Assembly (NCBI GenBank): GCA_031763025.1
Contig: JASSKH010000028.1
Location: forward strand, 7,017,324 to 7,081,323
Reading direction: 5' to 3'
Length of the DNA: 64,000 bases
Source: Macrocystis pyrifera
Lineage: Eukaryota; Sar; Phaeophyceae; Laminariales; Laminariaceae
Of this stretch, positions 3,093 through 62,920 are shown piece by piece (positions within the stretch are counted from its first letter, which is position 1; every line of letters starts with the position of its first letter). The translations under genes were made by a program, and so were the position numbers. The notes under the pieces are model-generated. The model had not been told where the DNA came from. It saw only the letters and a list, made by a program, of their open reading frames with translations, and searched no databases.

Positions 3093-3440
3093 TAAGCTAC
3101 TTTTTTCTTTTTTGAATCATAATTTTCACTTTCCAGCTTAACTCGTAGGAGGTTTTACCCTCAGCGGTCTTCTTCTGGACAAGCCGTGGTCACAGGTGTC
3201 GTCCCTTCTCCCCCCCGGTACGTGCCTCCATTTTTTGTCGCGCATAGGGTTCAGCGTTCCCACTGATCGTCGATTTTCATCGGATGTAGCGAACTCACGC
3301 TTTCGCGCTTTCCGCTAATCAATTTCTTTATGCTAGAAAAAGAAAAAGTCCTTACGAATATGTACTCGGTGAGACTTGAACCCACGAAATTGATCTTTGT
3401 AGGCACGCGGACCAGCTACTAAGCCACCGAGGACGCCGGC
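3093..3440 (-). mobile_element. tRNA-derived SINE, copy 1 (nearly full length)
   Basis: Read on the minus strand, this starts with a tRNA-like head. An A-box-like segment TGGCTTAGTAGCTGG lies at about 3412-3426 and a B-box GGGTTCAAGTCTC at 3371-3383, the spacing expected of an internal RNA polymerase III promoter. Five pairs of an acceptor stem (CTCGG with CCGAG) can still form. A body of about 250 bases and an A-rich tail (T-rich on the + strand near 3100-3112) follow. The body matches copies at 42.75 kb and 47.4 kb. Mobilisation by a LINE partner is known for tRNA SINEs in general; here it is inferred. Confidence 0.75.
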
Positions 3441-3524: not shown

Positions 3525-3940
3525 TAGCTTAGACCTATATCAATGGAAACGCGAAGTTCAAAAAAATTCTCTTCAAAAGTATTGCTTTTAAAAAACAGCC
3601 GAAAATATCCTCGTCCCGCCGCTGTGGGAAAAAAGTAAAAGATTGAACGGAGGAAATCTGGAGTTTGTGGAGAGGTGTTGAATCGTTGGCATGCTTGGAC
3701 AGAGGGGATGGGCAAGAGGTGCATATAAATCATGACGGGTGCAGTTGGTTGAACTAGGGAGACAGGCTGGGAAGGGTTGACACAGCGAGGAAGAAGACCA
3801 GTGAGGAAGAAGACCATCTACCGTAGTACTCTACTCGTGGGGGTGTACGAGCAGCGGGGGTTTGATATCCTTAGAAGATCGGCGAGTTGAAAGAAGAAGG
3901 GAAAAAACGTTTGATTTGATTTTTTTTCTTCTTCTTTTTC

Positions 3941-4050
3941 TATTACGGGGGACCATAGTGAGAGACCAAGTTTTTGTTAGTAAAAATAGGTAAATATATA
4001 GGTTTTTGTGTGTACCGTAGGTACTATTTACTATGGTCCTCCTCAAATAA
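3941..4050. mobile_element. Mariner-like MITE, copy 1
   Basis: A ~110 bp element with inverted ends. The left end reads TA then TTACGGGGGACCATAG; the right end is the diverged complement, ACTATGGTCCTCCTC. The A/T-rich middle (GTTAGTAAAAATAGG) matches the copies at 22.0, 50.5, 59.7 and 62.8 kb. TA flanks and a short hairpin structure are typical of non-autonomous Tc1/mariner elements. There is no coding capacity. Confidence 0.75.
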
Positions 4051-5999
4051 CGACTGCGGGCGGCGCAATTTGTTTTTTCTCGTTCCAAAATGGCAACACG
4101 AAGATAAATATCAGCTCGTGCGACGATAGACGCTCGATCTCGATATAGACTCAGCCCACGGCCAACCCGCTTGGTGTCGGGCAAGGCCAACGAGTATAGA
4201 TGACGGCATAGAAGGCGGATCCATGCTCAACGGGGCGAGAGCTTGCCGGTGGCGTCCTACGGTATCCTCCCAAACCTGAGAAAAAAACTGTTTTTGGCCA
4301 TTCGAGACGGATCGAGAATTTTTGTCTTCTGTTTTTTGCACACCAGCGGCCAATCGTTTTTTTATCGTATGCCTGGCCAGGGCCCGCCACACGTCACTGG
4401 CCATTGTGTGAACACGGTGACCCTAGGGTGGGTCAGAGCCCCTAACGAGCGCACTCCGTTCAGGATTCATGACGCAGTCGTTGGTTTTGTCGATCGATGT
4501 CTGTCGAGGACTCGGAATCTCGCCGCTTCGAATCAAACATCCGCTTGAGATTTCTGAAGCCGATCTTGGGCCAGCATCAGCCAAAGAATTGTTTTTTTTG
4601 GGCTTTTCCAAGAGTTTGGAACTTTCCGTTTGAAGAAACGTGCTCATACGAAGCAAGCTGTACCTGAAAAATTCTGACGGATATCTTTGGAATTCAAACT
4701 TTTTATGGGAACTTTGCGTTTCCATTGGCATATAATAGGCCTTAAAGCCTTATTCCAGACGGAAAACACGCCCTCTCCCATGAGTTACCAGTCCGATTAT
4801 TTCCATCCAGAGGGCCGGCAGGAAACGCCGAAAGCCCTATTCGCACGACGCACAACGAGTAGAAATGACACCCCTGCTGATTCAAATGTGTTCTCTGCGC
4901 AGGGGCCCTCCCTTGCCGGCTAGGAAGCAGCTCGGCACCCCTTGTGGCGGTAACCCGTCTCATAGCCGCTGAACCGCTGTAACACTGCTACCTGGTACCT
5001 GATACGGCTTCTAGGTACTACTAATAAGTACCAGCCAAGTGTCGTGTTACAGAAATTGAGTATTAGTTGTGGCTCGGAGAGCTCGTCCATACGAGATACT
5101 ACTTGCTGATTGTCGACGCCCACGCCCAGGGCCACGACAGCGCGAAAGGTCACAACCAGACTGTGCATAGCGGGGCGGGGCGCCCCGCGAAGATCCGAAC
5201 GTCGTCTACTGTGCTCTGTGGACTACTACTGCTGCAGTCCTCTCGAGCACCCACCCGTATAGAAAACTTGGCGAGAGCTTCAAATTGAAGCTCTCTCCGC
5301 CTGAAAGAGTACATATGTATGATACGGCGCTTGACTAAACAGACAAGAGTGTATCATGCAAAGAACAGAGTGTATGCTACCTGGTATGGTCGTACCGGTA
5401 GGTTACGTGCGCTACAAGCAGCTGGCTGCTGGCCGCTGGTCGCTGGCTATATCACTCACCGGGTAGCAGCATTGTACAGCGCTGTTGTTTCTGACGGGAG
5501 GGTTGGTGGACGACGTAGTGTACTCATAAACAACCACCCGGGCTTGTTGAGGAGGGGGATGGTGGTCGCCTGTCACTTCAATGGCGATGGCCTCGACCAG
5601 ACCACTGCTGTTGTTGTCGTTGCCCTGCTGTGCAGGTTGCTGCTGCGTAGCCTCCAGCTGCTTTTTCTTGCTGTCTGATATCGACTCGGCCATGTTTCAT
5701 CGCTTTCCTGATACTAATTCCAGGATGGCTTTGAAGACAACTGGTACCAGAGGTATAGCTCTACAGCTGGCAGGGTTGGGATTGAGCCGCAGTGTGCAGT
5801 GGTAAGCCGGCCGAAACGCTACTGATACTATCAGGCACCCCGGTACTTTACTGCGGCCAGGAATTTATACGAGGCACCCTCATAAATGCACCCTCGTAAA
5901 TGTCGGTTTCGCCAAACAATCTACGAACGGATACGATCTACGAGTCTACGATCTACGAGAACCTAAAAATAACGATCTACGTAGAGCGCAGCGGGTACG
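4051..5999. other. Intergenic stretch, no gene recognised
   Basis: Overlapping frames of 70-120 codons occur on both strands, without domain, splice-linked partner or composition like the PPR and ankyrin exons. The motif TACCTGGTA occurs at 4989-4997 and 5378-5386. I see no RNA gene or mobile element. Confidence 0.45.
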
Positions 6000-7946: not shown

Positions 7947-7985
7947 CCTGCATGACATGAGTACCCCCCCCCCCCCCCCCCCCCC
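7947..7985 (+). mobile_element. Poly(C)-tailed SINE-like element, 3' tail fragment
   Basis: The sequence CTGCATGACATGAGTA followed by 22 C residues (7964-7985) repeats the last ~17 bases and tail of the full copy just downstream. It is a severely 5'-truncated copy. Confidence 0.55.
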
Positions 7986-8011
7986 GCTATATTATATACC
8001 TGGTATATATA

Positions 8012-8546
8012 TATATATATAGGTTGGGTTGGCGTTGGGTTGGCGTCGGTTGGCGACGACGCTGTAAACCACGCCTCTCACTGTGTGAGCTAGACAGCCA
8101 GGGTACCGTTTTTTTTTCTTTTTTTTTTTTTTCCTTTTTTGGCGGTTACCACGGCTGGCGGTCAAGTTAGATCATTTTCGTGCGGGGAGAACCTTTACCC
8201 CGCACAATGGGGATGATCGAATCACGTATTGTGTATATGGTGAGGCACCCAAGAGGCAGTTACATAGTAAACCCATTTTCTGTCTCTGGAAGTGGCCACA
8301 CCAGACATAAAATCAGTTCATTGATGCTGTCATCCATATGCAAGAAAATCCGCCTCTAAAGCTGTTCTAAGTAGGATGCAGCTCACCCTTCACGCGACTC
8401 GCCCAACACCTCACGGCGCTTCGCGCTTGGTGCAAGCAATGTCTGTCTGGTCGGTGAAAACCCGACGTGCTCCGTCCCGGCATTGTAGGGATGCGAGGGT
8501 CTATAGTCATACGACTACATCCATGCATGATAATGAGTACCCCCCC
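8012..8546 (+). mobile_element. Poly(C)-tailed SINE-like element, full-length copy
   Basis: About 530 bp, starting in GGTTGGGTTGGCG and ending ATGAGTAC plus a C run. Landmarks shared with the other copies, in order, are GTGAGCTAGACAGCCAGGG, GAACCTTTAC, AGAGGCAGTTAC, GCGCTTGGTGCAAGCAATG, AAAACCCGACGTGCTCC and CATACGACTAC. A short frame of about 50 codons is shared by several copies but is probably incidental. The last ~27 bases resemble the 3' end of the LINE in this window, as expected when a non-autonomous element uses a LINE's machinery. I see no clear polymerase III boxes. Confidence 0.75.
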
Positions 8547-8564
8547 TCCCCAACCGCGAAACTC

Positions 8565-9344
8565 GTAAAACAGTTGGAAACAGTACAAATGACAGCAGCT
8601 AAAAAAACCCTAAGATGCTCAAGTACGACTAGTAATACAGTATTAAGAGCAGAACTGGGAATGCGCCCACTCAAGACAAATAGAGACATGAGAAAGTTGA
8701 ACTGGCAATATAAAGTAAGGAACATGCCAAAAAAGAGGTTGCCAGCCTTAGTTGATAGAGCTGTATGGGAGAACGTATCAAAAGGGCGAGCTGGAATAAG
8801 GTGGGATGGCGTAGTTGAGAAAGTATGAAAGGATTTAGGGGGAAACCAAGTAGAGGTGATGTCCGCCGGGAAGTTTGGGAGGTACAAGGCAGAAGTAGAA
8901 GAAAGGATATAAAGAAGGGAAAGGCTAACGCTAAGAAACAAGGTGGAATCGGAAAAACACTTAGAGATATACGGGGGATTGAGGGAAAAAATAGGAATGA
9001 AAACGTATTTGCATGGCCCAATGGACTTCGCGAAAACGCTGAAACTGCGCTTTCGTGTAGGGGACCTGGACCTGCCAGAAAGAAGAAAGAGGTACACCAG
9101 TAGCCGGGAAGAGGAGGAAGTAGACGCACAGATGTGCCCGTGTGGCAAAGCAATAGAGAGTAGAACTCACATAGGAGAATGTGAAATATACAAGGAGGAA
9201 CGGGATGTGTTAGAAGAGGAGATGAGGGAAATAGACGAATGTGACATGGAGGAGTTTAATACAATGAATAGCAGCGAGAAAACGATCGCTATCCTAGGAG
9301 ATAGATGGTGGCCACAGGAGGCCAAACAGGAAGGGGATAAGATT
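8565..9344 (+). pseudogene. LINE (non-LTR retrotransposon) ORF2 C-terminal part, copy 1
   Basis: One frame carries the region downstream of the reverse transcriptase, including the segment MTAAKKTLRCSSTT, broken by two in-frame stops (8826-8828 and near 8910). At about 9134-9180 it has a zinc-knuckle-like pattern, Cys-Pro-Cys, eight residues, His, four residues, Cys, as found near the C-terminus of many LINE ORF2 proteins. The same protein is encoded in degraded form on the minus strand at 60.4-61.3 kb. The copy is 5' truncated, with no polymerase motifs. Its 3' end continues at 10434 after an inserted element. Confidence 0.8.
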
Positions 9345-10430
9345 GGAGTGTTTGCGATTTCTTTTTTTTTTACTTTTACTTCTCTAAAAATTCTCCCGAG
9401 GTAAAATTTTTGAGGTAAATTTCTGAAATAACGGCCGGAAAAGACTTTACCGAAGTAAGGATTTCAGTGAAAGTTACGGTAACTTTTGGCTCTCTGTTTC
9501 ATTGGCCTACACGCACCGAGCATTATCCCGACGCAGAACGCAACTCAAATCTCGAAGGATCAAAACACCGAGCATCTTCCATGCCACCATGCTGCTTGCC
9601 GTACACATCTCGACAACCGCTGGGAGCACAGAGGCTCGAGAGGTGTAGCTTGAGTATAGCGCGCACGAGCGGCGTTGGACCGTGCCAGCGGATCGCCGCC
9701 GCTGCTACGGTACACGCTTTCGCCCGCTTGGTGACGACGTGGAGGATGCGTCGTCCCAAAAAAGGACTCGTATTCACACTCGTACTCGTACTCGTGCTCG
9801 TAGAGAGCGCGACGGCATGACGGCTCGTGTATCATTTCGATTTCACCATACTACGGCTGCAGCAGCAGCAGCAGCAGCAGCGGCAGCAGCGGCAGCAACG
9901 GCAGCAACGGCAGCGGCGGCGGCGGTGGCGGCGGCGGCGGAGCGGAGCGCGCCGGCGCTGTGGCGTGCGTAGGCCGAGCACAGCAGCAGCAGCAGCAGCA
10001 GCAACAGCAATCCAAAAATGGAAGCTGGTTGGTGCTGGTGCTTGCTGGTGCTGGTGCTGGTGCTGACGCTGTTTATTTTTGTTGCTCACGCTGCCCCTAG
10101 CTGCGTCTAGCGCCAGCTAGCTGCTATTGCTGCTTGTAGTCGTGGGATGGCTGTGGTGGCTTCGCATTCAACTGTGCCGCCGAAACGTTGCTGGGCTGCC
10201 GTTGCTACTCGCACGCTGTTTTTTTTTTTTTCCGTTCACAGCGTTCGTTCTTTTTTTGTTTGCCGCGTTGCCTCACCTCCCCACTGCCCTTCTTCTTGTT
10301 TGGGAGGCGTCGCCTGCAGGATTTGATTTACCTCACTCGCCAAACACACCGAAATCAGGAAGGGAAGGAAATTCACTTTTTTTAGCGGAAGTAAAGTTTG
10401 TTTTTTTTTTACCTCTATCGCAAATACTCT
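9345..10430. mobile_element. 1.09 kb inverted-repeat element nested in the LINE, copy 1
   Basis: Ends are inverted: GGAGTGTTTGCGAT on the left, and the complement of the right end reads AGAGTATTTGCGAT (12 of 14 identical). The triplet ATT is duplicated on both sides (9342-9344 and 10431-10433). The second LINE copy (60.4 kb) lacks the insert at this point, showing that it is an insertion. The interior holds CAG and CGG microsatellites (9851-10015) and T-rich blocks. A highly similar copy lies at 52014-53054. The low-complexity frames inside do not look like a transposase, so it is probably a non-autonomous DNA transposon. Confidence 0.75.
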
Positions 10431-10433
10431 ATT

Positions 10434-10587
10434 AGCAAAAAGTTTCTATGGAATTTATGGAAACAACGTAATGAGCGTCCAGTTGTTGGAGATGTCTCTA
10501 TCTCTATTAGGAGTAGGAACGGTGCTCCGTCTCGAAAGGGATGCGTGGTCAATGGTCAAGTGACTAGGGCAAGCAACAAATGAGTAG

Positions 10588-10620
<33 letters not shown>
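10434..10620 (+). mobile_element. LINE copy 1, 3' untranslated end and 33-base poly(C) tail
   Basis: This continues the LINE after the nested insertion. AGCAAAAAGTTTC, GGAAACAACGTAATGAGCG, GGAGTAGGAACGGTGCTCC and GCAACAAATGAGTAG occur in the same order as on the minus strand of the 60.3 kb copy. It ends in an uninterrupted C run at 10588-10620. Confidence 0.8.
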
Positions 10621-10778: not shown

Positions 10779-10856
10779 CCCCCCCCCCCCCCCCCCCCCG
10801 CCGCCATACGACTACGGCCATGCGTGACAACGAGTACACCTTCCCCCCCCCCCTCA
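10779..10856 (+). mobile_element. Poly(C)-tailed SINE-like element, 3' fragment
   Basis: CATACGACTACGGCCATG and ACGAGTAC match the last ~35 bases of the 530 bp element, followed after a few bases by a C-rich run. A separate C run (10779-10799) precedes it. It lies about 170 bp upstream of the PPR start codon. Confidence 0.5.
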
Positions 10857-18234: not shown

Positions 18235-18269
<35 letters not shown>

Positions 18270-18341
18270 CCAACTTGCTCCATCTCGAAAGGGGTGCGTG
18301 GTCAATGGTCGAATAACTAAAGCAAGCAACAAATGAGTACG

Positions 18342-18372
<31 letters not shown>

Positions 18373-20653
18373 TTCCCAACTACCTCAGTCCCATCCCCAC
18401 CCTTGAAACCCTAACCTCAGCCCCTCCTCCGCCCGCCGGGAAAAAAAATCGTCACCGTCCGGCACACCTCTTTACACGACTACCATACACTATCCATCTC
18501 ACCGCCAACACCACGATAACAATAACAACAAAAACAAAAACAAAAACAGGTAATCGTTGCGCTCGGCCGCAAGGGGGATTGGCAGCGAGCCGTCTCGACA
18601 CTGGGACGCATACGCAGGGCGGGAGCCGCCCCGGACGCTCACAGCTTCGCCATGGCGATGGCCGCGTGCGCCAGAGGGGGAGAGCCGCGGCAGGCCCTCC
18701 GACTCCTGGACGAGCTGAAGCGGGAGGGGCGCGGCGTGAGGCCGAACACCGTGGTGTACAACACTCTCCTAGGCCTCTGCAAGGGGAAGTCGCTTCGAGG
18801 TGGGGGAGGCGCTGAGAAAACAGGCGCAGCTGAGGAGGGGTCCGGGGCTGGTTCAGGTGTGGAGGTGGAAGCGGGAGGAGGGGCGGGGTCGGGAGGAGGG
18901 GCGAGTCAAAATGGTTTTTTTAGCGGCCGCGGGCCCGGAGGGGTTAATGGTGGTGGTGGTGGTGGTGGTGGTGCTGCTGCTGCTGCTGCTGCTGCTGGCA
19001 GTGGTGTTGATGTGGCCGTGAGCCCGAGTGTGGGGGGACACTTGCCAGACGGTAGGGTGGTGGATGTGGGCGGCGTTGGAGGTGAAGCGGAGGGGGGAGG
19101 TGGAGGAGGGGGGCATGTGACGGCGACGACGGCATCGGCAGCGGTGGCGGCGGCGGCGGAGGTCGGGGTAGGTCTAGCAGCAGCAGCAGATGGACAAGCA
19201 GGAAGCGCGGGTGTAGCGGGGGATCTGGAGTGGGGCCAGCAGCCGGAGGAGCTAGTCAGGACCGCGATCGCGCTCCTGCACGAGATGACCGTCGCGGGGG
19301 GCGACTGCGCGCCCGACAGGATGTCTTTCGAGCTCGTCATGCAGGCGTGCGTTAACGCCGGCCGCCCGGAGTCGGCCCTGAAAGTCTTCAGGGTGATGCG
19401 GCGATCGGTGGAGTCTTCGGACGTCGAGCGGGGAGTGAGGGGGGGACGGGCGCGGAGTAGTGTGAGGGTACGGCCGGAGCGGGCGACGTACAGGCTGGGT
19501 TTGACGGCGGCGGCGGCGGCCGGGGATGGGGCAGCCGCGGCAGTGTTGTTGGAGGAGATGAGGAGCGCTGGGATGGCGCTGGATGAGGTGGGTGGGTGGG
19601 TGGGTGGGGTGAGCAGGGGGGGGTGTACTCGATAGGAGAGATGTACTCGATCTCATGCATGGCCGTAGTCGTATGACCATAGACCCTCGCATCCCTACAA
19701 TGCCGGGACGGAGCATGTCGGGTTTTCACCGACCAGACAGACATTGCTTGCACCAAGCGCGAAGCGCCGTGAGGTGTCTGGCGAGTCGCATGAAGGGTGA
19801 ACTGCATCCTACCAAGAACCGCTTTAGAGGCGGACTTGCATATGGATGACAGCTTCAATGAAAGTTAGTTTCATTTCCGGTGTAGCCACTTCCAGAGACA
19901 GCAATGGAAGTACTATGTAACTGCCTCTTGGGTGCCTTACGTTAAACACTACGTGATACGATCGATTTCCCTTGTGCAGAGTAAAGGTTCTTTACCTCGC
20001 ACAAATGATCTAACTCGACGACCAGATATGGGCGACCGCCAAAAATGAATAAATAAATAAAAAAAACGGTACCCTGGCTGTCTAGCTCACGTTGTGAGCG
20101 GCATGTTGTACAGCGTCATTGCCAACCGACGCCAACCCAACCCATACATATGTAGGGCAGGGGGGGGGGGGGAGAGTCGGAAGGTGCGGGGGGGTGTACT
20201 CATCATCATGCATGGCCGTAGTCGTATGATCATAGACCCTCGCATCCCCCTACAATGCCGGGACGAAGCACGACGGGTTTTCACCGACCAGGGAGGGCGC
20301 GGGGGGGAGATCAGCATGGTTTCGTTAGCGCCGCTGTTGTTGTTGTTGTTGTTGTTGTTGCTGTTGTTGTTGCGTTTGGCGTTTTTTTGTGTTTCTTGTT
20401 AGGCCGCTAATCTCTGATCTGAGGCAGGCAGCACTCGGCGGTAGCTGTGTGTGTTTGGGCCTTGTGACCCTTTTTCTTGGAGTCTTGACGCAGCCGCCGC
20501 CGACGCAAATAACCCGCTATTATTAATAGTAGCTGTTTTTCCCCGCTAGGCTCTCGCGGGACAACGGCGCCGAGCCTTTTGCTCACGTAAAACACGATAA
20601 TTCCACCAACCCGCATCTGCAATTGATATGCAATCCCTCCCCTGCCCCCCGCA

Positions 20654-20685
<32 letters not shown>

Positions 20686-23600
20686 TTCTCTCTCCCTCCC
20701 CCCCCATTCCTCTCGCCCGCATCGCGTCCACCCGCGGCCCTGCGTTTGATGTAAATTTCTGCTTTTTTTTGTCTTTTTGTTTTTGTTTGTTTTGGCCCAG
20801 TCGACCTACCACCTCGCCGCGACAGCCTTCGGGCGCGCGGGGCTCTGGCGCCAGGGGATAAGCCTGGCCGCCATGGCGGAGGAAGAAGGCGCCGTCCTCT
20901 CCCCGAGCACCCTCACCAGCGTCCTCGGGGCTTGCGCAAAGGGTGCTCGCTGGGAAGAGGCGCTAAACCTCATTCGAAAGGCCCGCCCCGTCTTGAGAGA
21001 GGCGTTTTTTTTTGTTGTCGGACAGAGATGGAGACCGGGACGGAGACTGGGACATGGAACAGCTCCAGAATCGTTCCCCGAATCCGGCCACCGCCGCCGG
21101 GGGGGCGGATGGGGAAAAGGGAGCGGTAGGGACCGGGAAAGGCGCGGAGTCGCCGCCGCAGGAGTCCAGGGGGGGGGGAGAGGGTAAGGGGACGGAGAGG
21201 AGGCGGATAAGGGGTGAGGGGGCGGGGAGGAGGAGAGAAGAGGACGTGGTGTCAGCGTATACCCTGGCCATGGTAGCGTGCCGGTCGGCCGGCAGGCACG
21301 CGGAAGGTCTGGAGGTGCTGTCGATGCTCGAAGAGGACGGCGGGGGCAGGCGGCGGGAAGACGAATCGTTTTTCCGGGTGGCCCTCAAGTGCTGCGCGAA
21401 GGCTCCAGCGACCGGGGGCGGTAGAAGGAGCAGGGCGGGGGAGGGAGAGGGTTGGGAGGGGAGCGATGGTGGCGGTGGTGGAGCGACCGCCGCGGACGGG
21501 GTGCTTGAAAGCATGTCCGCCCAGGGGATTCCGTGCCGCGTGGAGGGTTTCACGGACGTTGCGCAGGTGGGAGTCTTTTCGACACGTCAGGGTATGTGTA
21601 GACGGGACGGGAAGGAGAACATTGGGGTCTACGGTGGGTGTGTTTTGTTTTTGTTGTTTCGCGCCTTGCTGTGGGTGTGTGCCCCGTGTCTCCTGAAGAA
21701 TGGCCGCGCCGGGATCTTTTTCCTTGGCGATGTGGTGGGGTGCCTTCGTGGTGTGTGTACCCGGTAGTGTTCTGCTCCGAGCGGGCAACGGCTGGAGGGG
21801 GGGGGGGCGGTGGCGGCAGCGGTGGCGGCCCGTGGCGGCGTTGCCTCGTATTTTCTTTCTTTTTCACAGGCATTCGGGTGTTGAGCCCGGCCCGAGCGGC
21901 GTCTCCTTTTTCCGTTTGGGGTGACTCGCGGTACATAGCCGAAAATAAATCATCTCGTCGCCCTTAAATGTCCTGTAGGGAGTTGGGGGCTGTGTTTTTA
22001 CGGGGGACCGTATTAAATAGGACCTGTGATACACACAAAAACCTATTATATTTCGCTATTTTTACTAAAAATATTTGGTCCTGTTTACTATGGCCTACCG
22101 TAATAGTTAGCGTTGACGGGAACGATATAACGGCAACGAACGATGGTTTGCAGCTAGCGCCATTCCCACACATCGAACGGCCCACGCAATACGAACGACC
22201 CCGGTCCTCGCATTCCCCCCTTTCCTCCCTCCCTCCCTCCCTCCCTCCCTCCCTCCCTCCCTCCCTCCCTCCCTCCCTCTCTCCCTCCCTCCCTCCCTCC
22301 CTTTCTCTCTCCCTCCCTCCCTCCCTCCATTCCTTTCTCTTTCCCTGTCTCCTTCCCTCTCTCCATCCCTGCCTCCCCCGCCCCTCCCCTCTCCCCATCT
22401 CTCTTCCTGCTGCCTCCCCTACCACTCCCCAGCGTGCCCTCCGTGGGGTCTATTTTTTCCCCTTGCTGACCCACAATCGATCATCCAACCCCCCGTTTCT
22501 CCGTTCCGCGCGACAGGCGTACGGCTTGGCCGGGAGGTGGGAAGACGCCCTCGAGCTCCTCCCTCGAGCGGCGGCGACCGGGGTCTCGCCCGACGAGCGC
22601 ATGTACTGCGCGGTCATCAACGCCATGGGCGAGAGCGGCGCTTGGGAGCGGGCGGTGGAGCTCATCCAATCGATGCGACGATCTTGCGGCGGTGACGGGA
22701 GCGGGGGCGGGTCGGGGGACCCCAGCACCGCTACCGGTTTCGCTTCTTCTGCCGCCGCCCCCGGCGATGAATCGTCCGTCACCGCTGTTGATGCCGACGG
22801 TGATTCCGATGCCGTTGTCGCTGATGTCGCTGATGTTGCTGCTGTTGCTGCTGCTGCTGTTTGCTGCTGCTGCTGCTGCTAACGCGGCGACTGAAGCCAC
22901 GGCGGTAGCGGCGTCTTCTGCCTGCGCTGGTTCTGGGTTAGAACCCGGGCCGGTGTTGCCGCCGAAGGCGCCGTTGCCGGGCCGGCCGGCGTACGGCTGC
23001 GCGTGCCGTGCCTGCGCGGTGGTGGGGGGGGAGTGGGCGGCGGTCCTGGGACTGATCGGCGACATGCGGGAGGATGGAGTGGCGAGGGACGCCGCCGTCT
23101 ACGCTTCGGCGATGCGGGCGCTGGTGGAAGCCGGGGAGTGGGAGAGAGCGGTGGAAGTCGTGACGGTTGAGGTGTGTGTATGTGTGAAAGAGAGAAGGGA
23201 AGGGGGGGGGGGGAGAGAGAGGGAGAGAGAACGCGAGAGATACAAAGGCAACTACTGTAGCCCCACCCTTGCCCCCATTCCGATCCTCATCTCTATCCAC
23301 CTCCACCCCCCCCCCCCCCCCCCACGCTCACCTCCACCCCCCCCCCCCCCCCCCCCCCCCGCCTCCAATCCCAACGTCCTGCCTGCCTTGAAGATGGAGC
23401 TCGACGGAGTCCCGCCAGACGCTCTCTCGTACCACCAGGCGCTGAGAGCGTGCCGCGCGGGGGCAAGCGGTGATGGCCGGGCGGCACGGCAGGCGTTGGC
23501 GCTCCTCGCCGAGATGAGAGGGAAAGGGCTGGAGGAAGGTTCTATCGCCCTCGAGGACGTGACCAGGTGGGATGCGATGGGATGGGATATGGGATGGGAT

Positions 23601-30259: not shown

Positions 30260-30346
<87 letters not shown>
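30260..30346 (+). repeat. Uninterrupted run of 87 G
   Basis: Bases 30260-30346 are all G, bordered by GGGC on the left and CGGG on the right. It is the longest homopolymer in the window. Neither edge carries the ATGAGTAC element end seen at other C/G runs. Strong G-quadruplex potential is expected from composition. Confidence 0.9.
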
Positions 30347-31058: not shown

Positions 31059-31141
31059 GGGGGGGGGGGGGGGGGGGGGAGTACGCATTTGTTGCTTGCC
31101 TTAGTCAATTGACCATTGATCACGCATCTCTTTCGAGATGG
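31059..31141 (-). mobile_element. LINE 3' end with 21-base poly(C) tail, minus strand
   Basis: G at 31059-31079, then GTACGCATTTGTTGCTTGCC, TTGACCATTGATCACGC and CTTTCGAGATGG: the complement of the LINE's last ~60 bases. It abuts a SINE-like copy directly, in the same orientation. Confidence 0.7.
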
Positions 31142-31650
31142 GGTACTCCATAGGAGAGATGTACTCGATCTCATGCATGGCCGTAGTCGTATGACCATAG
31201 ACCCTCGCATCCCTACAATGCCAGGACGGAGCATGTCGGGTTTTCACCGACCAGACAGACATTGCTTGCACCAAGCGCGAAGCGCCGTGAGGTGTCCGGC
31301 GAGTCGCATGAAGGATGAGCTGCATCCTACTAAGAACCGCTTGTAAGGCGGAGTTGCATACGGATGACAGCTTCGATGAGTTAATTTAATTTCCGGTGTA
31401 GCCCCTTCCAGAGACAGCCATTGGAGTACTATGTAACTGCCTCTTGGGTGCCTTTACCTTGAACACTACGTGATATGATCAATTCCCTTGCGCAGAGTAA
31501 AGGTTCTTTACTACGCACAAAAGATCTAGCTCGACGACCAGGTGTAAAAAAAAAAAAAAAAAACGGTACCCTGGATGTCTAGCTCACGTAGTGAGCGGTA
31601 TGTTTTACAGTGTCGTTGCCAACCGACGCCAACCCAACCCATGTGTATAA
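31142..31650 (-). mobile_element. Poly(C)-tailed SINE-like element, near full length
   Basis: Shares all family landmarks in order from GTACTCGATCTCATGCATGG to CCAACCGACGCCAACCCAAC. A TATA-rich stretch and another G run (31672-31689) follow its 5' end. It carries the duplicated GTACTC 3' variant also present in the PPR intron 6 copy. Confidence 0.75.
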
Positions 31651-42187: not shown

Positions 42188-42225
42188 GGGGTGTACTCGA
42201 TATCTTGCACGGCCGTAGTCGTATG

Positions 42226-42256
<31 letters not shown>
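42188..42256 (-). mobile_element. SINE-like element 3' tail fragment beside a G run
   Basis: TGTACTCGATATCTTGCA and CGGCCGTAGTCGTATG match the family's 3' end. A G run of about 29 bases follows immediately (to about 42256), so G tracts lie on both sides of the fragment. Confidence 0.55.
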
Positions 42257-42744: not shown

Positions 42745-43066
42745 CGTCCCCGGTGGCTTGGTAGGTGGTCCGCGTGCCTATGAAGATCAATTTGGTGGGT
42801 TCAAGTCTCACCGAGTGCATGCTCATAGGGACTTTTTCCTGCATAAAAAATGATAAGCGGAAAGCACGAGAGCGTGAGTTAGCTGCATTCGATGAAAATC
42901 GATGAGCAGTGGGAATGCTGAACCCTATGCGCGACAAAAAATAAAGGCACGTACCGGGGAGGGAGAAGGGACGACACCTGTGACCACGGCTTGTCCAGAA
43001 GATCGCTGAGGGTAAAACCTCCTACGAGTGAGGCTGGAAAGTAAAAGTGATGAATAAAAAAAAAAA
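42745..43066 (+). mobile_element. tRNA-derived SINE, copy 2 (full length)
   Basis: A-box-like TGGCTTGGTAGGTGG at 42754-42768, B-box GGTTCAAGTCTCA at 42798-42810, family body (AAATCGATGAGCAGTGGGAA, CCTATGCGCGACAAAAAATA, GAGGGTAAAACCTCCTACGA) and an A tail at about 43054-43065. ATCGT precedes the head and follows the tail, a possible 5 bp target duplication. It is the most complete copy in the window. Confidence 0.82.
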
Positions 43067-43599
43067 TCGTAACTTCGTCCAAACCTTCCACTCCCATTGG
43101 TTTTGTTTTTCATTTATGAGCTTGTTAGCAATGTGGTGTTGTATTGTTTATTTATTTATTTTTTGTCATGCACCCCTGTTATAACGGCGACTAAACAGGG
43201 GAGCTAATCGCCCGAGTGGCTCTGAGGCGCTGACTAAAACAGACCCGAAAAGCGACCCCCCTACGTACCGTTTCCCGTGATTTAGTCGGTTTGACAGGTT
43301 GAAGGGGGGCAGGCAATGGTCTCAACACAGAACCTCTAGCACAGCTGCGCAAACGCGTAGAATCCCTTGTTATATGTTGCTCGAAGCTCGTGAGCGTTCT
43401 TTTGAGATGCGTGGCATCCCAAGAAAAATCTTCAACAAATCCCAACATGATACCCAGTAGCGTTCTTGTTTTTCTCCATCTTCTTTTGGTCCCACGCCCT
43501 GCGAAACGGAAGGTACTCACCTTTTGAAAGTGCTCAAAAAACGGTAGCGAATCAAATTATGCTCCCGACATGTTTCGCCATTCGAACGATGGCGATTCG

Positions 43600-45539: not shown

Positions 45540-46200
45540 TTCTCACATCGTGCTTGAGTTTCCTCGGCCTCATGTTAGGGCCAGGAGCTTGAGCAGGGGA
45601 GTTTTGTTTTCGCCTAGGCATGTATCTTGCTGGGTTTCCTCGGCCTCATGTTAAGGCCGGGAGTCGGAGCAGAGAAGTTGTGCAGTGCCGAGTCGTGTAT
45701 ATATCGTGCTTGAGTTTTCGCGGTCTCATGTTAAGGCCGCGGGTCGGAGCAGGAAATTCTTACAGTGCCGAGGCGTGTATATATCGTGCTCGAGTTTCCT
45801 CGGCCTCATGTTAAGGACGGGAGTCGGAGCAGAGAAGTTGTGCAGTGCAGAGGTGTGTATATATCGTCCTGGGGTTTCCTCGGCCTCATGATAAGGCCAC
45901 GGGTCGGAGCAGGGGAGTTTTGTTTAGCCGAGGCGTGTATCGTGCTTGGGTTTCCTCGGCCTCGTGTTAGGGACGAGAGTCCGAGCAGAGACGTTTTATA
46001 GTGCCGAGGCGTGTATATATCGCACTTGAGTTTCCTCGGCCTCATGTTAAGGCCACAGGTCAGAGCAGAGGAGTTTTGTTTTGCCGAGGCGTGTATCGTG
46101 CTTGAGTTTCCTCGGTCTCATGTTAAGGCTGGCCGTCGGAGCAGAGAAGTTTTATAGTGCCGAGGCGTGTATATATCGTGCTCGAGACTGCTCGGCCTCC
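45540..46200 (+). repeat. Tandem repeat, about 8.5 units of 76-81 bp
   Basis: Each unit reads roughly GTGCTTGAGTTTCCTCGGCC, TCATGTTAAGGCC, GGTCGGAGCAGAG and GTGCCGAGGCGTGTATATAT. CCGAGG near the end of a unit and CCTCGG in the next can pair across the TATATAT spacer, making a hairpin at each junction. Unit lengths are not constant multiples of three, so it is not a coding array. Confidence 0.88.
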
Positions 46201-47375
46201 TCTTAAGTCCACTTCAGGTCAAGTCAGAAACGAGGTCACGTGGCATACGAATTAACTCTACATGTTCCAGATGTGACCAGGACGTGAGACTGCTATGAAT
46301 AAGTGTGTTGCATCATCACACCAGCCGAAAACCTTCTTCTGTGCTGCTCGTCTCTGTAGAAGCTGACGGTTTTTCTCGAACGGTACTTGGGTATCACTAA
46401 AAGTCTTGAGTACTGATTTCCGCTTTCTGAAAATAGAATATCCCACCCACCGCACACAGAAACAGCGATTCGACAAATGCTGCCTGCCGAAGACAGACAT
46501 TTCCAGCGTGCCGCTCCTCTCACACACCACCAATGTCATAAAGGGCGGTGCTCAATTTCGTGGCTTTCGGTCGCTGTTGTGGCTTGTGCGCGAGTCATCC
46601 ATCCGCGACCTCAGTTTTTCGTTTCCAAACAAGACTTGCTTGTGTTTCGTGTTTCTCATAATTCTCATAATCTCTTTTATCGTTTCCTCAGGAGCATCGA
46701 GCCAGTAGAGCCAGACAGCTTTACTGGTACAGTACTTCAACATTAGGGGGGGCATAGTACTGCATAGTACTGCAGAACCCATGATGGACCCAAAAACCGT
46801 GTATTACACTACCAATACTATGCCTACCACTATGTCGGAAGCTACTGGGTGTCTACTGGAAGCTGCTGAGTTCTACGGAGAGCTTCCTCTACAGTAGACG
46901 AATTCAGTCCCAGCACACGGCGACGAGTCACGCCGCACACAGCAGCTTCTTCCACCCGTGATCGGCTCCTATATCTATGCTTGGGAGCCCGACTGCAAGG
47001 TGACTGTCTTCGCCAGGAGCATCTGAATCGTGGGAGGGTGCGACACCGAAAAGAAACGGCGGCGGTTATCGTGAGGGACGGGGGGGCAGGGGGGGGGGGG
47101 GGGGGGGGAGTGTTGGAAACCACCACTGCCGTGCGACGGAAAGCAGAGTCAATTCAAGGATGACGAAGGGTGTGTGGGGGGGGGGTGGTAGAACAGCTGG
47201 GTGGTGTTTTCGTCTAGCCAGACTGGTACGGCGTTTACTGCGAGAAACCGAGTGGCAGGCGTTCAACAAAAATGCGCCTACAGACAGTACCCGTGCGTCG
47301 TTTTTATTTTGTTTCGTTTCATCCGGAGCATTGTACGTGCACAGGTAGGTGGTCAGGACCCGCTCCTTGGACTTT
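46201..47375. other. Intergenic stretch, no gene recognised
   Basis: Short frames only. A G run lies at 47088-47108 within CGGGGGGGCAGG, without the element ends seen at other G runs. Confidence 0.4.
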
Positions 47376-47557
47376 TAGTTTTTTTTGCTTATCATCAGTT
47401 TTACTTTCCAGCTTTACTCGTAGGAGGTTTTACCCTCAGCGACCTTCTGGACAGGCCGAGGTCACAGGTGCTATCCCTTCTCCCCCCCTGCGCGTGTCTT
47501 CATTTTCTTGTCGCGCATAGGGTTCAGCATTTCCACTGCTCGTCGATTTTCATCGTG
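47376..47557 (-). mobile_element. tRNA-derived SINE, copy 3 (5'-truncated)
   Basis: TACTCGTAGGAGGTTTTACC, GTCGCGCATAGGGTTCAGCA and CGTCGATTTTCATCG match the complement of the SINE body. The tRNA head is missing, and the A tail survives as a T-rich stretch at its left edge. Confidence 0.75.
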
Positions 47558-49930: not shown

Positions 49931-50519
49931 CATATCTATTTTTTTGTGTCGAGTGGTCCGTATTATCGTTGCCGGTTACTTGCCCGGACATTTGTTCTTT
50001 TTTGCGTTTGTTTCTGTTACGAATTTTGCATGTCGGGTAGGTTACTGTATATAGATACCATTTCGTTTTCAGAAAGTAAGGTCGGTGTTACTTGCAGTAA
50101 TAATTACGGCCCTCCCTTTACCCAACGAAGTCGTCCTTCCACCAGTGCTTTTACGACTTTTTTTTTTCTTTTAGCTCTTGGCCACCATTTCACAGGCAGA
50201 ATGCCGCAACACGTCCCGCACATTTTTTTTAGTTGGCGTGGTTGTTCACCCTTGCTTGGGTGACAAGACGTCACACTACGGCCCTCTGGCCCCCACTCCC
50301 ACCTCGCGCATATACGGTCCCACAGCAGCACAGTACAATACTCGGTAGTATGGCTGTTAGGTGAGCGTACGTATAGTACGCCAACTGGAGTCGTCTACTG
50401 CTTCAATAGCTATACCTGGTAGGTATGATAGTATGATAGGTACTCTCTTCAGCACCAGCGCCGACGAAACGCTAGAGACTTTGCCTACCAGGTACGTAGG
50501 TGTGCATACATACTGGCAC

Positions 50520-50628
50520 TATTACGGGGGTCCATAGTTAATAGGACCTGTGGCATACATAAAAACCTATATATTAACGTATTTTTACTAACAAATTTTG
50601 GTCCCGTTAACTATGGACCCCCGTAATA
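50520..50628. mobile_element. Mariner-like MITE, copy 3 (best preserved)
   Basis: Nearly perfect inverted ends: TTACGGGGGTCCATAGTTAA on the left, and the right end is its complement, both flanked by TA. 109 bp in total, with an A/T-rich centre. Confidence 0.85.
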
Positions 50629-51060
50629 GCTGTGCATATTATTTTACAGTACAAATACAACGCAACAAACATATCAATTCAACAGAAAAACAACACGAGT
50701 GAGGGTGCACCAGCTTCCGCGCGCTGGGTAACCCACAGCAGGCAGGAGCGGCAGCAGTATACCAGCAGCAGTACTGCAGTAGTAGAAGCGGTAGCTGTGC
50801 GTATGCGCATATTACTGTGCTGCTGCTGTTGTTTCGTATGTTGTTGTTGTTGCTGCTGCTGCTCCTTCGAAAAGTGGCGCGGGGGGGGGGGGGGGACTCA
50901 TTTTCGTAAAATAGTTACAGCAGTCTGCAGCAGTACGAATACGTCGAAAGATTCCATTATTTTTTCACGCGGGGCAATTAGCTTTCTCCTAAACTATATA
51001 TCAACACGCTGAGAAACATCAGCTCATTCATGCGATGACCGATTTTTTTTTTAGAGCAAA
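50629..51060. other. Intergenic stretch with TTG/TGC microsatellite
   Basis: CAG and TGC triplet tracts at 50745-50870 and a G run at 50881-50894; no gene recognised. Confidence 0.4.
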
Positions 51061-52013: not shown

Positions 52014-52620
52014 AGAGTGTTAGCGATTTTTTTTTTTTTTGTACTTTTACTTCTCTAAAAATTCTCCCGAGGTAAATTTTTGAGGTAAATTTCTGAAAAA
52101 ACGGCCGAAAAGTACTTTAGCGAAGTAAGGATTTCAGCGAAAGTTACGGTAACTTTTGGCTCTCTGTTTCATTGGCCTACACGCACCGAGCATTATCCCG
52201 ACGCAGAACGCAACTCAAATCTCGAAGGATCAAAACACCGAGCATCTTCCATGCCACCATGCTGCTTGCCGTACGCATCACGACAACCGCTGGGAGCACA
52301 GAGGCTGGAGAGGTACAGCTTGGGTATAGCGCGCACAAGCGGCGTTGGATTGTGCCAGCGGGCCGCCGCCGCTGCTACGGTACACGCTTTCGCCCGCTTG
52401 GTGACGACTTGGAGGATGCGGCGTCGCAAAAAAGGACTCGTACTCCCTCGTATTCGTACTCGTGCTCGTACAGAGCGCGACAGCATGACAGCCCGTGTAT
52501 CATTTCGATTTCAACATACTGCGGCAGCAGCAGCAGCAGCAGCGGCGGCATCAGCACCCGCGGCGGCGGCGGCGGCGGCGGAGCGGAGCGCACCGGCGCT
52601 GTGGCGTGCGTAGGCCGAGC

Positions 52621-52660
<40 letters not shown>

Positions 52661-53054
52661 CAACAGCAATCCTAAAACGGAAGCTGGTTGGTGCTGGTGC
52701 TGGTGCTGACGCTGTTTATTTTTGTTGCTCAAGCTGCCCCTAGCTGCGGCTATCGCCAGCTAGCTGCCGCTTGCTGTGCTGCTGCTTGTAGTCGTGGGAT
52801 GGCAATGGTGGCTTCGCGATCAACTCTGCCGCCGAAACGTTGCTGGGCTGCCGCTGTTTTTTTTTTTTTCCGTTCTTCTTTTGTTTGTTTGCCGCGTTGC
52901 CTCACCTCCCACTTCCCTTCTTATTTCCGGAGGCGTCGCCTGCAGGATTTGGTTTACTTCACTCGCAAACACACCGAAATCAGGAAGGGAAGGAAATTCA
53001 CTTTTTTTAGCGGATGTAAAGTTGTTTTTTTTTTACCTCTATCGCAAACACTCT
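52014..53054. mobile_element. 1.04 kb inverted-repeat element, copy 2
   Basis: Highly similar throughout to the element at 9345-10430, with AGAGTGTTAGCGAT on the left and AGAGTGTTTGCGAT as the complement of the right end. CAG and GGC microsatellites (52522-52670) differ in length from copy 1. A frame starting MPPCCLPY occurs in both copies but is low complexity. Flanking triplets (AGT, ATT) do not match. Confidence 0.75.
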
Positions 53055-53539
53055 ATTGACGTATAAACTCTGTACTCGTACGTCGTACGTAAAAGTACGT
53101 ATACACATGCATACATGCGTACGCTGGTTTCACTTTTTCTCCTTGGGGGTGTGCGATGTGCTTCAGTTAGTTGTGCAGTAACTACGTGATTTACAGCAGT
53201 AGGTACGATACTCAGTAGGTCTCGTATCTTGGGTGCAGCACAAACTTAGGTTCGTATCATATACCAGGGTCGTAGGCACGTATCATACGTCCAGCAATTG
53301 GCACAGCATGCATGCAGAAGGTGCGTACTACAAGTACTAAATCAGTACCAGCTGATGTACCAGGTACACATATATACGGACACAGACACGGGCCGCACTA
53401 CATAGGGCAACGCAGGGCTATATACACCGCCCCCCTCGCTTCCTCGGCAAGGCATGCTGCGAGGCATGCCCTATCGGGCTTATAGCGAGTGGGGTATACT
53501 AGATATTTCTGGCGGGTGTAAGGCCGGACTCACCCTCAA

Positions 53540-59437: not shown

Positions 59438-59683
59438 ATCATGTGAGATCCATTTGCACACTCCTCTGGCATGATGATGCTGCTGTAGGGTGGGTAGGAC
59501 TGCACACACACAACACTGTGGGTGGTAGCGAATTTTTGCTTTTCGTTTTTGGTCGAATGTGGTTCGTCTTGTACGCGAGGGTATGCTATTATTGTTATGT
59601 TCACATCTCGGCGTTTGTCATACATACCTGGTATGTCAAATACTACAATAGCCCACTGTTTCAACGAAATTCTGAGACAGCAG

Positions 59684-59792
59684 TATTACGGGGGTCCATA
59701 GTTAACGGGACCAAATTTTGTTAGTAAAAATAGGAAAATATATAGGTTTTTATGTACAGCATAGGTCCTGTTAACTATGGACCCCCTTAATA
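59684..59792. mobile_element. Mariner-like MITE, copy 4
   Basis: TA flanks, left end TTACGGGGGTCCATAGTTAA, right end TTAACTATGGACCCCCTTAA. The A/T-rich centre is inverted relative to copy 3. It interrupts the 3' flank that ankyrin gene 2 shares with gene 1, so it inserted after the duplication. Confidence 0.85.
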
Positions 59793-60242
59793 GTATTTCG
59801 CAATATGCATTTCTATGTCGCGCGTTCTTCACCAACATGCCACTACAATACTTTCTTGTGTTGGCTCGTACTTCAGCGTAGTGTGCCGACTACTGTTGTA
59901 AGCAACGCTTTCCATTGTAGCGCTTCGTACAGAGCGCCATATGCATTTCTTCTGTCACCAATCAATAACCGATGCCGTAGCAACCGAACCTGTCAGTCGT
60001 TTTGGAAGGCTGAAGGCGAGGGCAATGATCCCCACACCGGGTATCTTGCACGGCTGCGCAAACGTCCGAACCACGATTCCATAGACTTGCTGCAACTCCC
60101 CTTCCCCATCCTTTGTTGTCGCTCGAAGCACGTGGACGTCGTTTTGAGGCGCGTGATCCTTACCAAAGAACAACAAACCCAAAAAAATATTCCGAACACT
60201 TTTTCATATTGGTAAAAACCCCACGGCCCGCCAGACAGGGGA

Positions 60243-62834
60243 GGGGGGGGGGGGGGGGGCGTACTCATTTGTTGCTTACCTTAGCAATTTGACCATTGGC
60301 CACGTATCCCTTTAGAGACGGAGCACCGTTCCTACTCCTAATGGAGACACCTCCAACAGTTGGGCGCTCATTACGTTGTTTCCATATATTACATAGAAAC
60401 ATTTTGCTATTATTTTCCCCTCCCTATTTGGCCGCCTGTGGTCACCATCTATCTTCTAGGATAGCGATCGTTTTCTCGCTGCTATCTAGTGTATCAAACT
60501 CCTCCATGTCATATTCGTCTATGTCCCCCATCTCCTCTTCTAACACATCTCGTTCCTCCTTGTACATTAACATTCTCCTACTACGCAGGTTCTACTCTCT
60601 ATCGCTTTGCCACACGGGCACATCTGTGCTTCTATTTCCTCCTCCTGGCTACTGGTATATCTTTCTTCTTTCTGGCAGGTCTAGGTCGCCTACATGAAAT
60701 CGCAGTTTCAGCGTTTTCGCGAAGTCCATTGAGCCGTGCACATGCGTTTTCATTCCTATTCCTTCGCTCAATTCGCCGTACATCTGTAAGGGCTTTTCCG
60801 ATTCCACCTTGTTTCTTAGCGCCAACCTTTCCCTTATTTCTATCCTTTCTTCTACTTCTGCCTTGTACCTCCCAAACTTCCCGGCGGACATCACCTCTTC
60901 TCGGTTTCGCCCAATTTCCTTCATGCTTTCTCACGTACGCTATCCCACCTTATTCCAGCTCGCCCTTTTGTTGGTTTCTCCCATACAGCTCCATCAACTA
61001 TGGCTGGCAACCTCTTTTTTGGCATGTTCCTTACCTGGTACTTTATATTGCCATTTCAACTTTTTCATGTCTCTATTTGTCTTCGGTGGGTACATTCCTA
61101 GTTCTGATCTTAATACTGACTGTATTCCTAGTCGTACTTGAGCATCTTAGGATTTTTTTAGCTGCTGTCATCCGTACTGTTTCCAACTATTTTACGAGCT
61201 TCGCGTTCCCTTCCCGTACTTCTCCTGCATATTCTAGCTTTGGTACTACCACCTTCATCAGGATACATCTCTTAATCCCAGTGTCAAGGTGCGAGTCTGT
61301 TAGGATCGCACCCATCTTTCCTACGTGTGCTTTTTCCTTGCCTATTACTTTTGCTATGTGTATCCCAAGAGTAGTCGTCTGATATCGCTACGCCAAGGTA
61401 CGTATACTGGTCTACGATCGGCAATTCATCTTCTCCCCGCTTCCAAACGAAATTTACCGGGTTCACCGTATCTTCGTTACAAACCAATTACTGCGCATTT
61501 CGATCGCCGTCACCCTCCATTTCCTAGTGTGTTCTAGCGCCTTCTCTATTTATTTCTGCAATCCTTCGGGTGTTTCTGATACCCCCACGAAGTCATCCGC
61601 AAACATCAATCCCGACACCGTATCTTCCCCTACCGTGACTCCCTTGCTTGCTGCTTCGACTGCTACTATCAGGTCGTTAATGTATATCTTGAATAGGTTA
61701 GATGACAGTGTACATCCCTGTGCAGCTCCTTGTAGAATATCAACAAACTTCGATATTTCCCCGTCCAGCATCACAGCACTTCTCGCACATTCCGTCATCT
61801 TTTTTCATCATCCTCCACATCTTTCCTATTTCCCCCAGTTTTTTCCACAATCCATTTCTCCATACTGTGTCGTAGGCTTTCTGCACATCTAGAAAGAAAC
61901 AGGATGTTGTTAGTCCCGCGTCTTTGTTACCTTGGGCAATCTCACCTCAGGTGTACACATGGTCTACTCAGCTACGGTTTGGCCTAAACCCTGCTTGCCC
62001 TTCGCTTATTTTGTCTCCCTTCTCTTATCATCGTTCCCGTTCTATCGTTCAGAATCTTAACAAAAAAATTGCTTACTGTGCTTAGTAGCGTTATCCCTCT
62101 GTAGTTCCCCGGGTGAGCCTTATCTCCTTTCTTGAATAAGTTTACTACTGCTCCTTCTCTCCTCCTCCTGGGCGCGTACTCGTTTTTCCATATCCAGTTA
62201 TCCAACATAGCCACTCATGATGAGTATTCCTTCTCCCCCCCACTTCATGAATGCATTCACTGTTTGGTCTGCCCCTGCTGCCTTTCTCTTCTCAAGTTTA
62301 GCTGCACACTTATTTGCTTCTTCCCTTGTGAACTCTCTCTGTAACCCTCCTGAACCACTGTCTTCCCTTTCTGATGCATCCACGTTCGTTGTTGCCCACG
62401 CGTTGATTTCCTTCTCGAATTCTGCGTCGAACGTTTAGTTGGCTGTGCGTGTTCCTAGCTTGCGGTAATGCTCTACTAATAATAGTACTTCTCGTTTTCC
62501 CCTTCGAACTACTAACCATTATACCGTTCTGTGCTCGTAAAGTAGTTATTCCCGTGTCTACCTCTCCTGCTAGTTTGCCCAGTATCCCTTTTGTCCTTAC
62601 CCACAGCTGCTTCTTTCCGCCCTCGAAGGCTTCATCTTTTAGTTACTACGGTACGAGTTTCCATATCCCTTTCTTCTTCTTCTCTACCATCTCTTTTACT
62701 TTCTTTCTAGCTACAGCATATTCCTCCCGTCCTGTTGTAGTTTTACCCGATGTATATATTGCGTGTGCCTTTCTCCTTGCTCTTACAGCCTCTTTCACTT
62801 CCTCATTCCACCATTTTACTGCTCTGTTGCATGC
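60243..62834 (-). pseudogene. LINE (non-LTR retrotransposon), longest copy, with poly(C) tail
   Basis: Read on the minus strand, the order is: an endonuclease-RT linker (KWWNEEVKEAVRARRKAH, near 62760-62830), a reverse-transcriptase core with NYRGITLL (62079-62106), QGCTLSSNLF (61691-61720) and the catalytic FADDF (61589-61603), a thumb/linker region (VDQYTYLGVAISDD), the Cys/His zinc knuckle near 60610, a 3' UTR and a poly(C) tail (G at 60243-60259 on +). Many stops and frame changes make it inactive. The endonuclease domain is absent: the copy is 5' truncated or cut by the MITE at 62835. Confidence 0.88.
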
Positions 62835-62920
62835 TATTACGGGGGTCCATAGTTAATAGGACCTATGGTATACATAAAAAACTATATACTTGCCTATTTT
62901 TAGTAACAATATTTGGTCCT
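62835..62920. mobile_element. Mariner-like MITE, copy 5 (right end lost)
   Basis: TA then TTACGGGGGTCCATAGTTAA at the left; the family middle follows, and the sequence breaks at ATATTTGGTCC, so about 25 bases of the right end are missing. It sits at the 5' edge of the LINE. The words TTGCGTGTGCCTTTCTCC occur both within the LINE (62759-62776) and just beyond the MITE (62926-62943). Confidence 0.7.

Follow-up and report, generated by a model that had tools for sequence, protein, structure and literature searches.

The window, by which we mean the whole stretch of 64,000 nucleotides from the kelp Macrocystis pyrifera analysed here (contig JASSKH010000028.1, positions 7,017,324 to 7,081,323), contains copies and 3' fragments of a LINE together with copies of its short non-coding partner, for which we use "SINE" as a loose label (Table 1). 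The segment given in the preliminary description (8012-10620) turned out upon self-alignment to be mixed, comprising a SINE (7988-8540), two parts of a LINE (8555-9345 and 10430-10587) and another repeat (9346-10433). The latter, ~1.1 kb long, splits LINE copy A and recurs at 52015-53057; its ends (TTTGCGAT and ATCGCAAA) resemble, by eye, short inverted repeats. Elements of the LINE and SINE type form same-orientation chains at 7964-8555, 18238-18372 and 31059-31642, with a C-run between the neighbours.

Table 1. LINE and SINE-like elements of the window, their C-runs, and unoccupied relatives of one insertion site
Feature	Position	Strand	Remarks
Unoccupied relative of the L035 site	3097..3341	+	C7 at 3210-3216
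C22	7964..7985	+	left: GCATGACATGAGTA end; right: directly SINE 7988..8540
SINE-like non-autonomous element, near full length	7988..8540	+	C22 on 5' side, C7 (8541-8547) on 3' side
LINE copy A, 5' part	8555..9345	+	ORF C-terminal region with stops; starts behind SINE C-run
LINE copy A, 3' part	10430..10620	+	C33 at 10588-10620
C22 + short SINE 3' fragment (10805-10836) + C11	10778..10853	+	
LINE 3' fragment, ~64 nt, with C27	18170..18264	+	
LINE 3' fragment, ~64 nt, own C31	18276..18372	+	11 nt behind C27; chain
SINE copy, duplicated CGAGTACA end, C8	19626..20146	-	5' side: C13 (20160-20172)
SINE 3' fragment	20196..20295	-	
LINE 3' fragment with C21 (31059-31079)	31059..31141	-	chained to SINE at 5' side
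SINE copy ending in C4	31153..31642	-	
Short SINE 3' fragment	42190..42256	-	5' side: C30 (42227-42256)
Further unoccupied relatives of the L035 site	42833-43065, 47373-47555		
SINE, 5'-truncated, C16	43824..44053	-	
SINE copy with C6	49417..49926	-	no C-run seen on 5' side
LINE copy B, RT with FADDF at 61603, C17 (60243-60259)	60243..62837	-	

Other repeats in the window include a MITE-like family with the ends CTATTACGGGGGTCC and GGACCCCCGTAATAG (3940-4046, 21998-22106, 50518-50633, 59677-59796 and 62831-62919), one copy of which lies inside LINE copy B and is followed on its far side by a short piece of the LINE (reference 1620-1651); a dispersed repeat (3094-3435, 42745-43075 and 47371-47555), which is the source of the unoccupied reference sites for the LINE insertion L035 discussed below; and a tandem array (45547-46250) with units of ~76-80 bp, or 156 bp as doublets. 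The SINEs at 19626 and 31161 represent a variant with a doubled end (CGAGTACATCTCTCCTATCGAGTA), as if a second 3' end had been acquired. Very long runs occur as a cluster of C39, C30 and C21 (15848-15970) and as G87 (30260-30346), and no element border was found adjoining them. In a strict check, which misses at least those at 7964 and 43824, 9 of the 47 window C- or G-runs of at least 9 nt sit at an element border, which leaves many C-runs without an insertion or with another origin.

The identity of the window LINE is based on the RT match (FADDF on the minus strand) and on self-alignment. Copy B is broken and its Pfam RT scores fall under the curated cut-off; L072, a longer copy from elsewhere in the genome, matches RVT_1 with 97.9 bits (cut-off 29.6), and its RT matches L1 ORF2p (E 2.9e-20). 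Upstream of the RT of L072, in the order expected for an APE-type LINE, lies an endonuclease-like region, for which PF03372 scores 23.0 bits (cut-off 24.5 bits) and PF14529 scores 20.6 bits (cut-off 27.4 bits); neither profile reaches its cut-off. By analogy with the RTE-X LINEs of Ectocarpus (PMC12477816), the kelp LINE, with its APE-like endonuclease a candidate from these below-cut-off profile matches, probably belongs to the RTE-X clade. A 3' simple repeat other than A, which is an RTE-X trait, is present; the trait is found in other clades too and so is not decisive. The features of the LINE class, namely a fixed 3' end, variable 5' truncation and target duplications, were all found. The last ORF of both L072 and copy B stops at the TGA within AAATGAGTAC, which leaves these copies almost no 3' UTR. 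By eye, the 5' region of L072 (222-700) appears to comprise several units of ~75 bp, and some LINE copies reach further upstream than L072.

The SINE-like partner is ~525-550 bp long. The similarity of its 3' end to that of the LINE, pointed out in the preliminary description, holds in an alignment of ~120 LINE nt with 135 SINE nt (score 68, against a maximum of 33 in 500 shuffles). As to the origin of the SINE head, Rfam gave no match up to E 1 and ARAGORN found no tRNA in 7985-8560; a 5S-rRNA ancestry of the SINE end was considered and dropped in view of the lack of an Rfam match. The last 67 nt of the LINE are predicted to fold better than shuffled sequences (z -2.4), with an outer stem in which GUGCUC pairs with GAGUAC, and the signal is weaker for the SINE end (z -0.9) and for a longer LINE piece (z -1.7). 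RNAalifold returned no pairs. Counted over 69 copies, the predicted structure keeps 94% of its pairs, with covariation not beyond that in shuffles. The LINE 3' RNA structure, which may exist, is regarded here as a lead only. At the 5' edge of the predicted fold, 13 of 48 LINE truncations fall within a 12-nt span (reference 4066-4077, ~64 nt from the 3' end; window examples at 18170, 18276 and 31141), a cluster to be read bearing in mind that locus choice by the 3' end favours short copies. This cluster may mark a point where the RT stops, or else a distinct mini-element, and the region of the modelled fold may serve the RT as a recognition domain and stop site.

All five C-runs reported behind LINE-derived 3' ends in the window were recovered, with lengths of 33, 27, 31, 21 and 17 C. 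The ATGAGTA(C)G-type end said to precede them is present in three cases, but the run at 18238 follows GAGCAAGCG and that at 31059 follows ATGCGTACT. Likewise, nine SINE-type 3' ends with a C-run can indeed be counted (near 7963, 8539, 10836, 19626, 20197, 31161, 42194, 43840 and 49428), but six of them carry C4-C8 only; two (7963 and 43840) carry at least C16, and one (10836) reads CACCTT followed by C11. Exact ATGAGTAC is found in four of the nine, the rest being variants.

Outside the window the same association recurs. Genome-wide counts, made in the assembly of 537,376,219 bp and 223 contigs, yielded 4406 occurrences of ATGAGTA(C)9 (reversed control: 14) and 4883 of the exact LINE 3' end GCAAGCAACAAATGAGTA (control: 0), with the next bases reading C-V-CCC in 3868 of these 4883 (79%). 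This C pattern at 3' ends lies far above chance. The RT stretch as a query gave 3554 first-look candidates genome-wide, of which 150 were scored, and the SINE query gave 6481, of which 40 were scored. Among 30 loci picked by RT similarity alone, 25 (the window's own copy included) have the 3' end within the stretch and five do not; each of the 25 carries at least C5 (range 6 to 123), so that C and not a poly(A) tail of the L1/Alu type is found there. The larger copy sample was taken from the collected genomic loci and the window, with three viral contigs left out, and comprised 181 3'-complete copies, or 125 after removal of shared flanks (65 LINE, 60 SINE); as the loci were mostly picked by similarity to window elements or by their 3' end, it is not random. 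Here, 60 of 65 LINE and 48 of 59 SINE copies had a 3' run of C5 or more (one SINE being too close to the stretch end), the longest LINE run being C167. C-run-associated LINE and SINE 3' ends are real and widespread, and the fixed 3' end with variable 5' truncation, noted earlier for both elements, was borne out across copies. Two probes of 21 and 26 nt, taken from the two 3' ends, had no match in IMG/VR, and a LINE peptide had none outside this genome. Three IMG/VR contigs with a 17-mer of the LINE end were taken as chance matches, because none runs on into C.

The 5' side of the copies is bordered by C as well. Runs of at least C5 lie within 25 bp of the 5' end in 40 of 48 LINE and 44 of 57 SINE copies (20 of the 125 being too close to the locus end), against a background of ~4% of window 25-mers. 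The corresponding numbers for LINE and SINE copies are 0 and 1 for G-runs, 1 and 1 for A-runs, and 2 and 4 for T-runs. By source, a 5' C-run was recorded in 28/31 copies from RT-selected loci, 20/24 from 3'-anchor loci, 19/23 from SINE stretches, 9/10 from the first pattern loci, 4/7 from L072-L074 and 4/10 from the window itself; the last score is partly due to alignments that start inside the element (at 8034, the true SINE start being 7988, preceded by C22) or at an internal break (10431). In one counted copy (L012), the C5 comes from a MITE-like repeat that has inserted there. With C5 missing from the 25 bp next to the aligned 5' end in 25 of 104 copies, a C-run target is a preference and not a rule. 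Exact SINE 5' ends occur 369 times genome-wide, 172 of them directly after CCCCC. LINE truncation points are scattered across the reference, so that the element itself does not encode the 5' C-run. A repeat on both sides of insertions, as looked for in elements that target simple repeats, is thus present.

Sites related to four insertions (L035, L081, L089 and L017) were found unoccupied; they are paralogous sites or adjacent repeat units instead of alleles, and already carry C-runs of ~C5-C14. The relatives of the L035 site (3097-3341, 42833-43065, 47373-47555 and L065) contain C7, C3TC4, C7 and C8, respectively, with the run between TTCT and the right flank, while the site occupied by the LINE has C14 on the left and CG plus C32 on the right, followed by the same flank GGTACG. 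The SINEs L081 and L089 sit in minisatellites whose adjoining insert-free units carry runs of ~C5-C14 (L081) or of C8-C10 and more (L089), and the LINE L017 lies at the end of a repeat that reads GGACCCCCGTAATAG elsewhere. The 5'/3' runs are 14/32 in L035, 10/10 in L081, 18/5 in L089 and 10/6 in L017; with the 3' run long relative to the 5' run in L035 alone, it is the only one of the four that suggests an added tail.

Target duplications, which the preliminary description had proposed to look for, are clear in seven cases (L059, L036, L020, L013, L017, L072 and L109/L110) and consist of the C-run plus ~4-10 bases, which recur after the 3' C-run. When 37 flank pairs were compared with tolerance for mismatches and gaps, 0 of 300 pairing shuffles reached their mean similarity, and 4 of the 37 scored at least 6, against 0.5 expected; in a stricter exact-match test the mean was above the shuffle mean, though not above every shuffle. 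The end pairs of ten further long copies, in most of which the 5' end lies outside the stretch, included one clear duplication. Fewer than 3 bases separate the 5' C-run from the element in 43 of 78 copies, so that C would mask any duplication in them.

The original claim of a LINE and partner mobilised by target priming and associated with C instead of A is therefore upheld, being supported by the common 3' end, the fixed 3' end with variable 5' truncation and some target duplications. Its reading of the C-run as a simple tail is not: the 5' side carries a C-run about as often, and C-runs at unoccupied sites, which the same description had named as evidence against a tail, are there at all four insertions examined for them. 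We propose, with a probability of about three in four, that the LINE and its SINE-like parasite insert by target-primed reverse transcription into pre-existing C-runs in a fixed orientation, which accounts for the C-runs on both sides of most copies examined. The endonuclease would nick the G strand where a C:G run ends, and the freed GGGG-3'OH would pair with C at the RNA 3' end and prime the cDNA, in keeping with the fixed orientation. The RT would often stop early, giving the 5' truncation that is observed, and the second nick would fall inside the run or a few bases past its end, as the duplications show in part; the duplication would then be the C-run alone or with ~4-10 further bases, and the copy would lie between two C-runs. 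The new C-runs would be reused as targets, in an order of events that would lead to the same-orientation arrangement seen in the chains, and LINE 3' ends might in addition gain C by slippage or from the template. As to a fuller version, in which C homopolymers serve the pair for landing as well as for priming, and in which it renews its own targets, we see the odds as even. If targets are renewed, each insertion makes two C-runs from one and may lengthen it, the elements chain head to tail, and the genome is enriched in oriented C-runs.

The lengths of the runs bear on the alternative that most of the C is tail, either added as the RT slips or encoded in an RNA that ends in C, as the preliminary description has it, with the 5' C-runs resulting from insertion into older tails, which we consider unlikely. 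In 78 copies with both runs, the longer one is at the 3' side in 36 and at the 5' side in 36, and the two lengths are not correlated. LINE runs are longer at 3' (median 17 vs 11, p 0.009), as an added tail would have it, but SINE runs are equal on both sides (11 vs 12, p 0.17); an extra C tail is not needed for the SINE and none is seen, while one in the LINE, by slippage or from the template, is possible. Given these LINE runs, and C32 at L035 against C7-C8 in its empty relatives, the target alone may not explain the LINE tails, but the 3' run does not exceed the 5' run in L017, L081 and L089, and the related unoccupied sites carry C-runs of their own. Insertion into older tails would agree with the 3'-end-like motif found just before the 5' run in 32 of 79 copies, which is an upper estimate, as the check used a loose motif match in the same orientation only and gave at least one false positive (L081, a minisatellite); the remaining 47 of 79 5' runs are not behind such a motif. 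The reading accordingly moves from a poly(C) tail to a C-run target, perhaps with an extended tail.

The shared orientation of the window chains and the C-run between their neighbours would also follow if the RT switched to the 3' end of a second RNA, so that neighbours arrived together; such template jumping is very improbable as an explanation of the whole, since it covers the chains only, and neither the 5' C-runs outside chains (the same 47 of 79, by the loose check) nor the C-runs of unoccupied relatives. Homopolymer lengths are imprecise in long-read assemblies, and this, together with the uncorrelated run lengths, could suggest that the C-runs are assembly artefacts or products of later microsatellite growth unrelated to insertion. 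We find this scarcely credible, because it is C, not G, that flanks the element, read on its sense strand, on either side, at many truncation points and in thousands of copies. A cut-and-paste or Helitron origin was also considered and dropped, as it fits poorly with the fixed 3' end, the variable 5' truncation and the duplications.

If insertion into pre-existing C-runs is correct, a LINE/SINE pair of great success, with thousands of copies, can take a homopolymer other than A as its priming partner and its target signal, and part of the C-runs of the genome is tied to a retrotransposon. The pair would further provide a natural test of the fit between endonuclease preference and RNA 3' end, and annotators of kelp genomes would gain a mark of insertion borders.

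In human L1/Alu, elements with a 3' homopolymer and common machinery, a target run of the complementary base primes synthesis, duplications begin with the run, and insertion into older tails occurs. The kelp pair appears to be alike in its way of working, as a C-based counterpart of this poly(A)/T-run system, but with C/G in place of A/T and with a partner that carries LINE 3' sequence. Microsatellite-specific LINEs were reportedly also treated by Kojima and Fujiwara in 2004. One such element, Togen, is described in the excerpted source as specific for (TG)n and near the NeSL clade (PMC4640811); it shares with the kelp LINE the insertion into a simple repeat, whereas the kelp repeat is a C homopolymer and the kelp LINE has a candidate APE-like endonuclease. 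The stringent type is represented by UnaL2, which ends in TGTAA repeats, and by the eel SINE with its LINE-derived 3' end, for which slippage is discussed in the excerpted text (PMC3747384); the LINE-derived SINE end and simple 3' repeat are as in kelp, and the TGTAA repeats differ. According to the same excerpts, green-algal RTEX LINEs end in simple repeats other than A, such as (CA)n, (CAA)n or (CCAT)n (PMC3747384), with (C)n not among the repeats listed there. Our literature search on C tails or C-run targets, in which the usual spelling poly(C) was not searchable, found no C-homopolymer LINE/SINE pair among the papers listed.

The closest known pair is RTE-X and RTEX-N1 of Ectocarpus, where, in the excerpts of its description, the RTE-X LINEs RTEX-1_Ec32 and RTEX-2_Ec32 have their 3' end in common with the non-autonomous RTEX-N1_Ec32, of ~600 bp and more than 6000 copies (PMC12477816). 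These excerpts name neither C-runs nor target choice (PMC12477816); by description, both systems combine a brown-algal LINE with an abundant non-autonomous partner that has a common 3' end and a 5' part without traced origin. A LINE/partner pair as such is thus already known in brown algae, and the main new fact in kelp is the choice of target.
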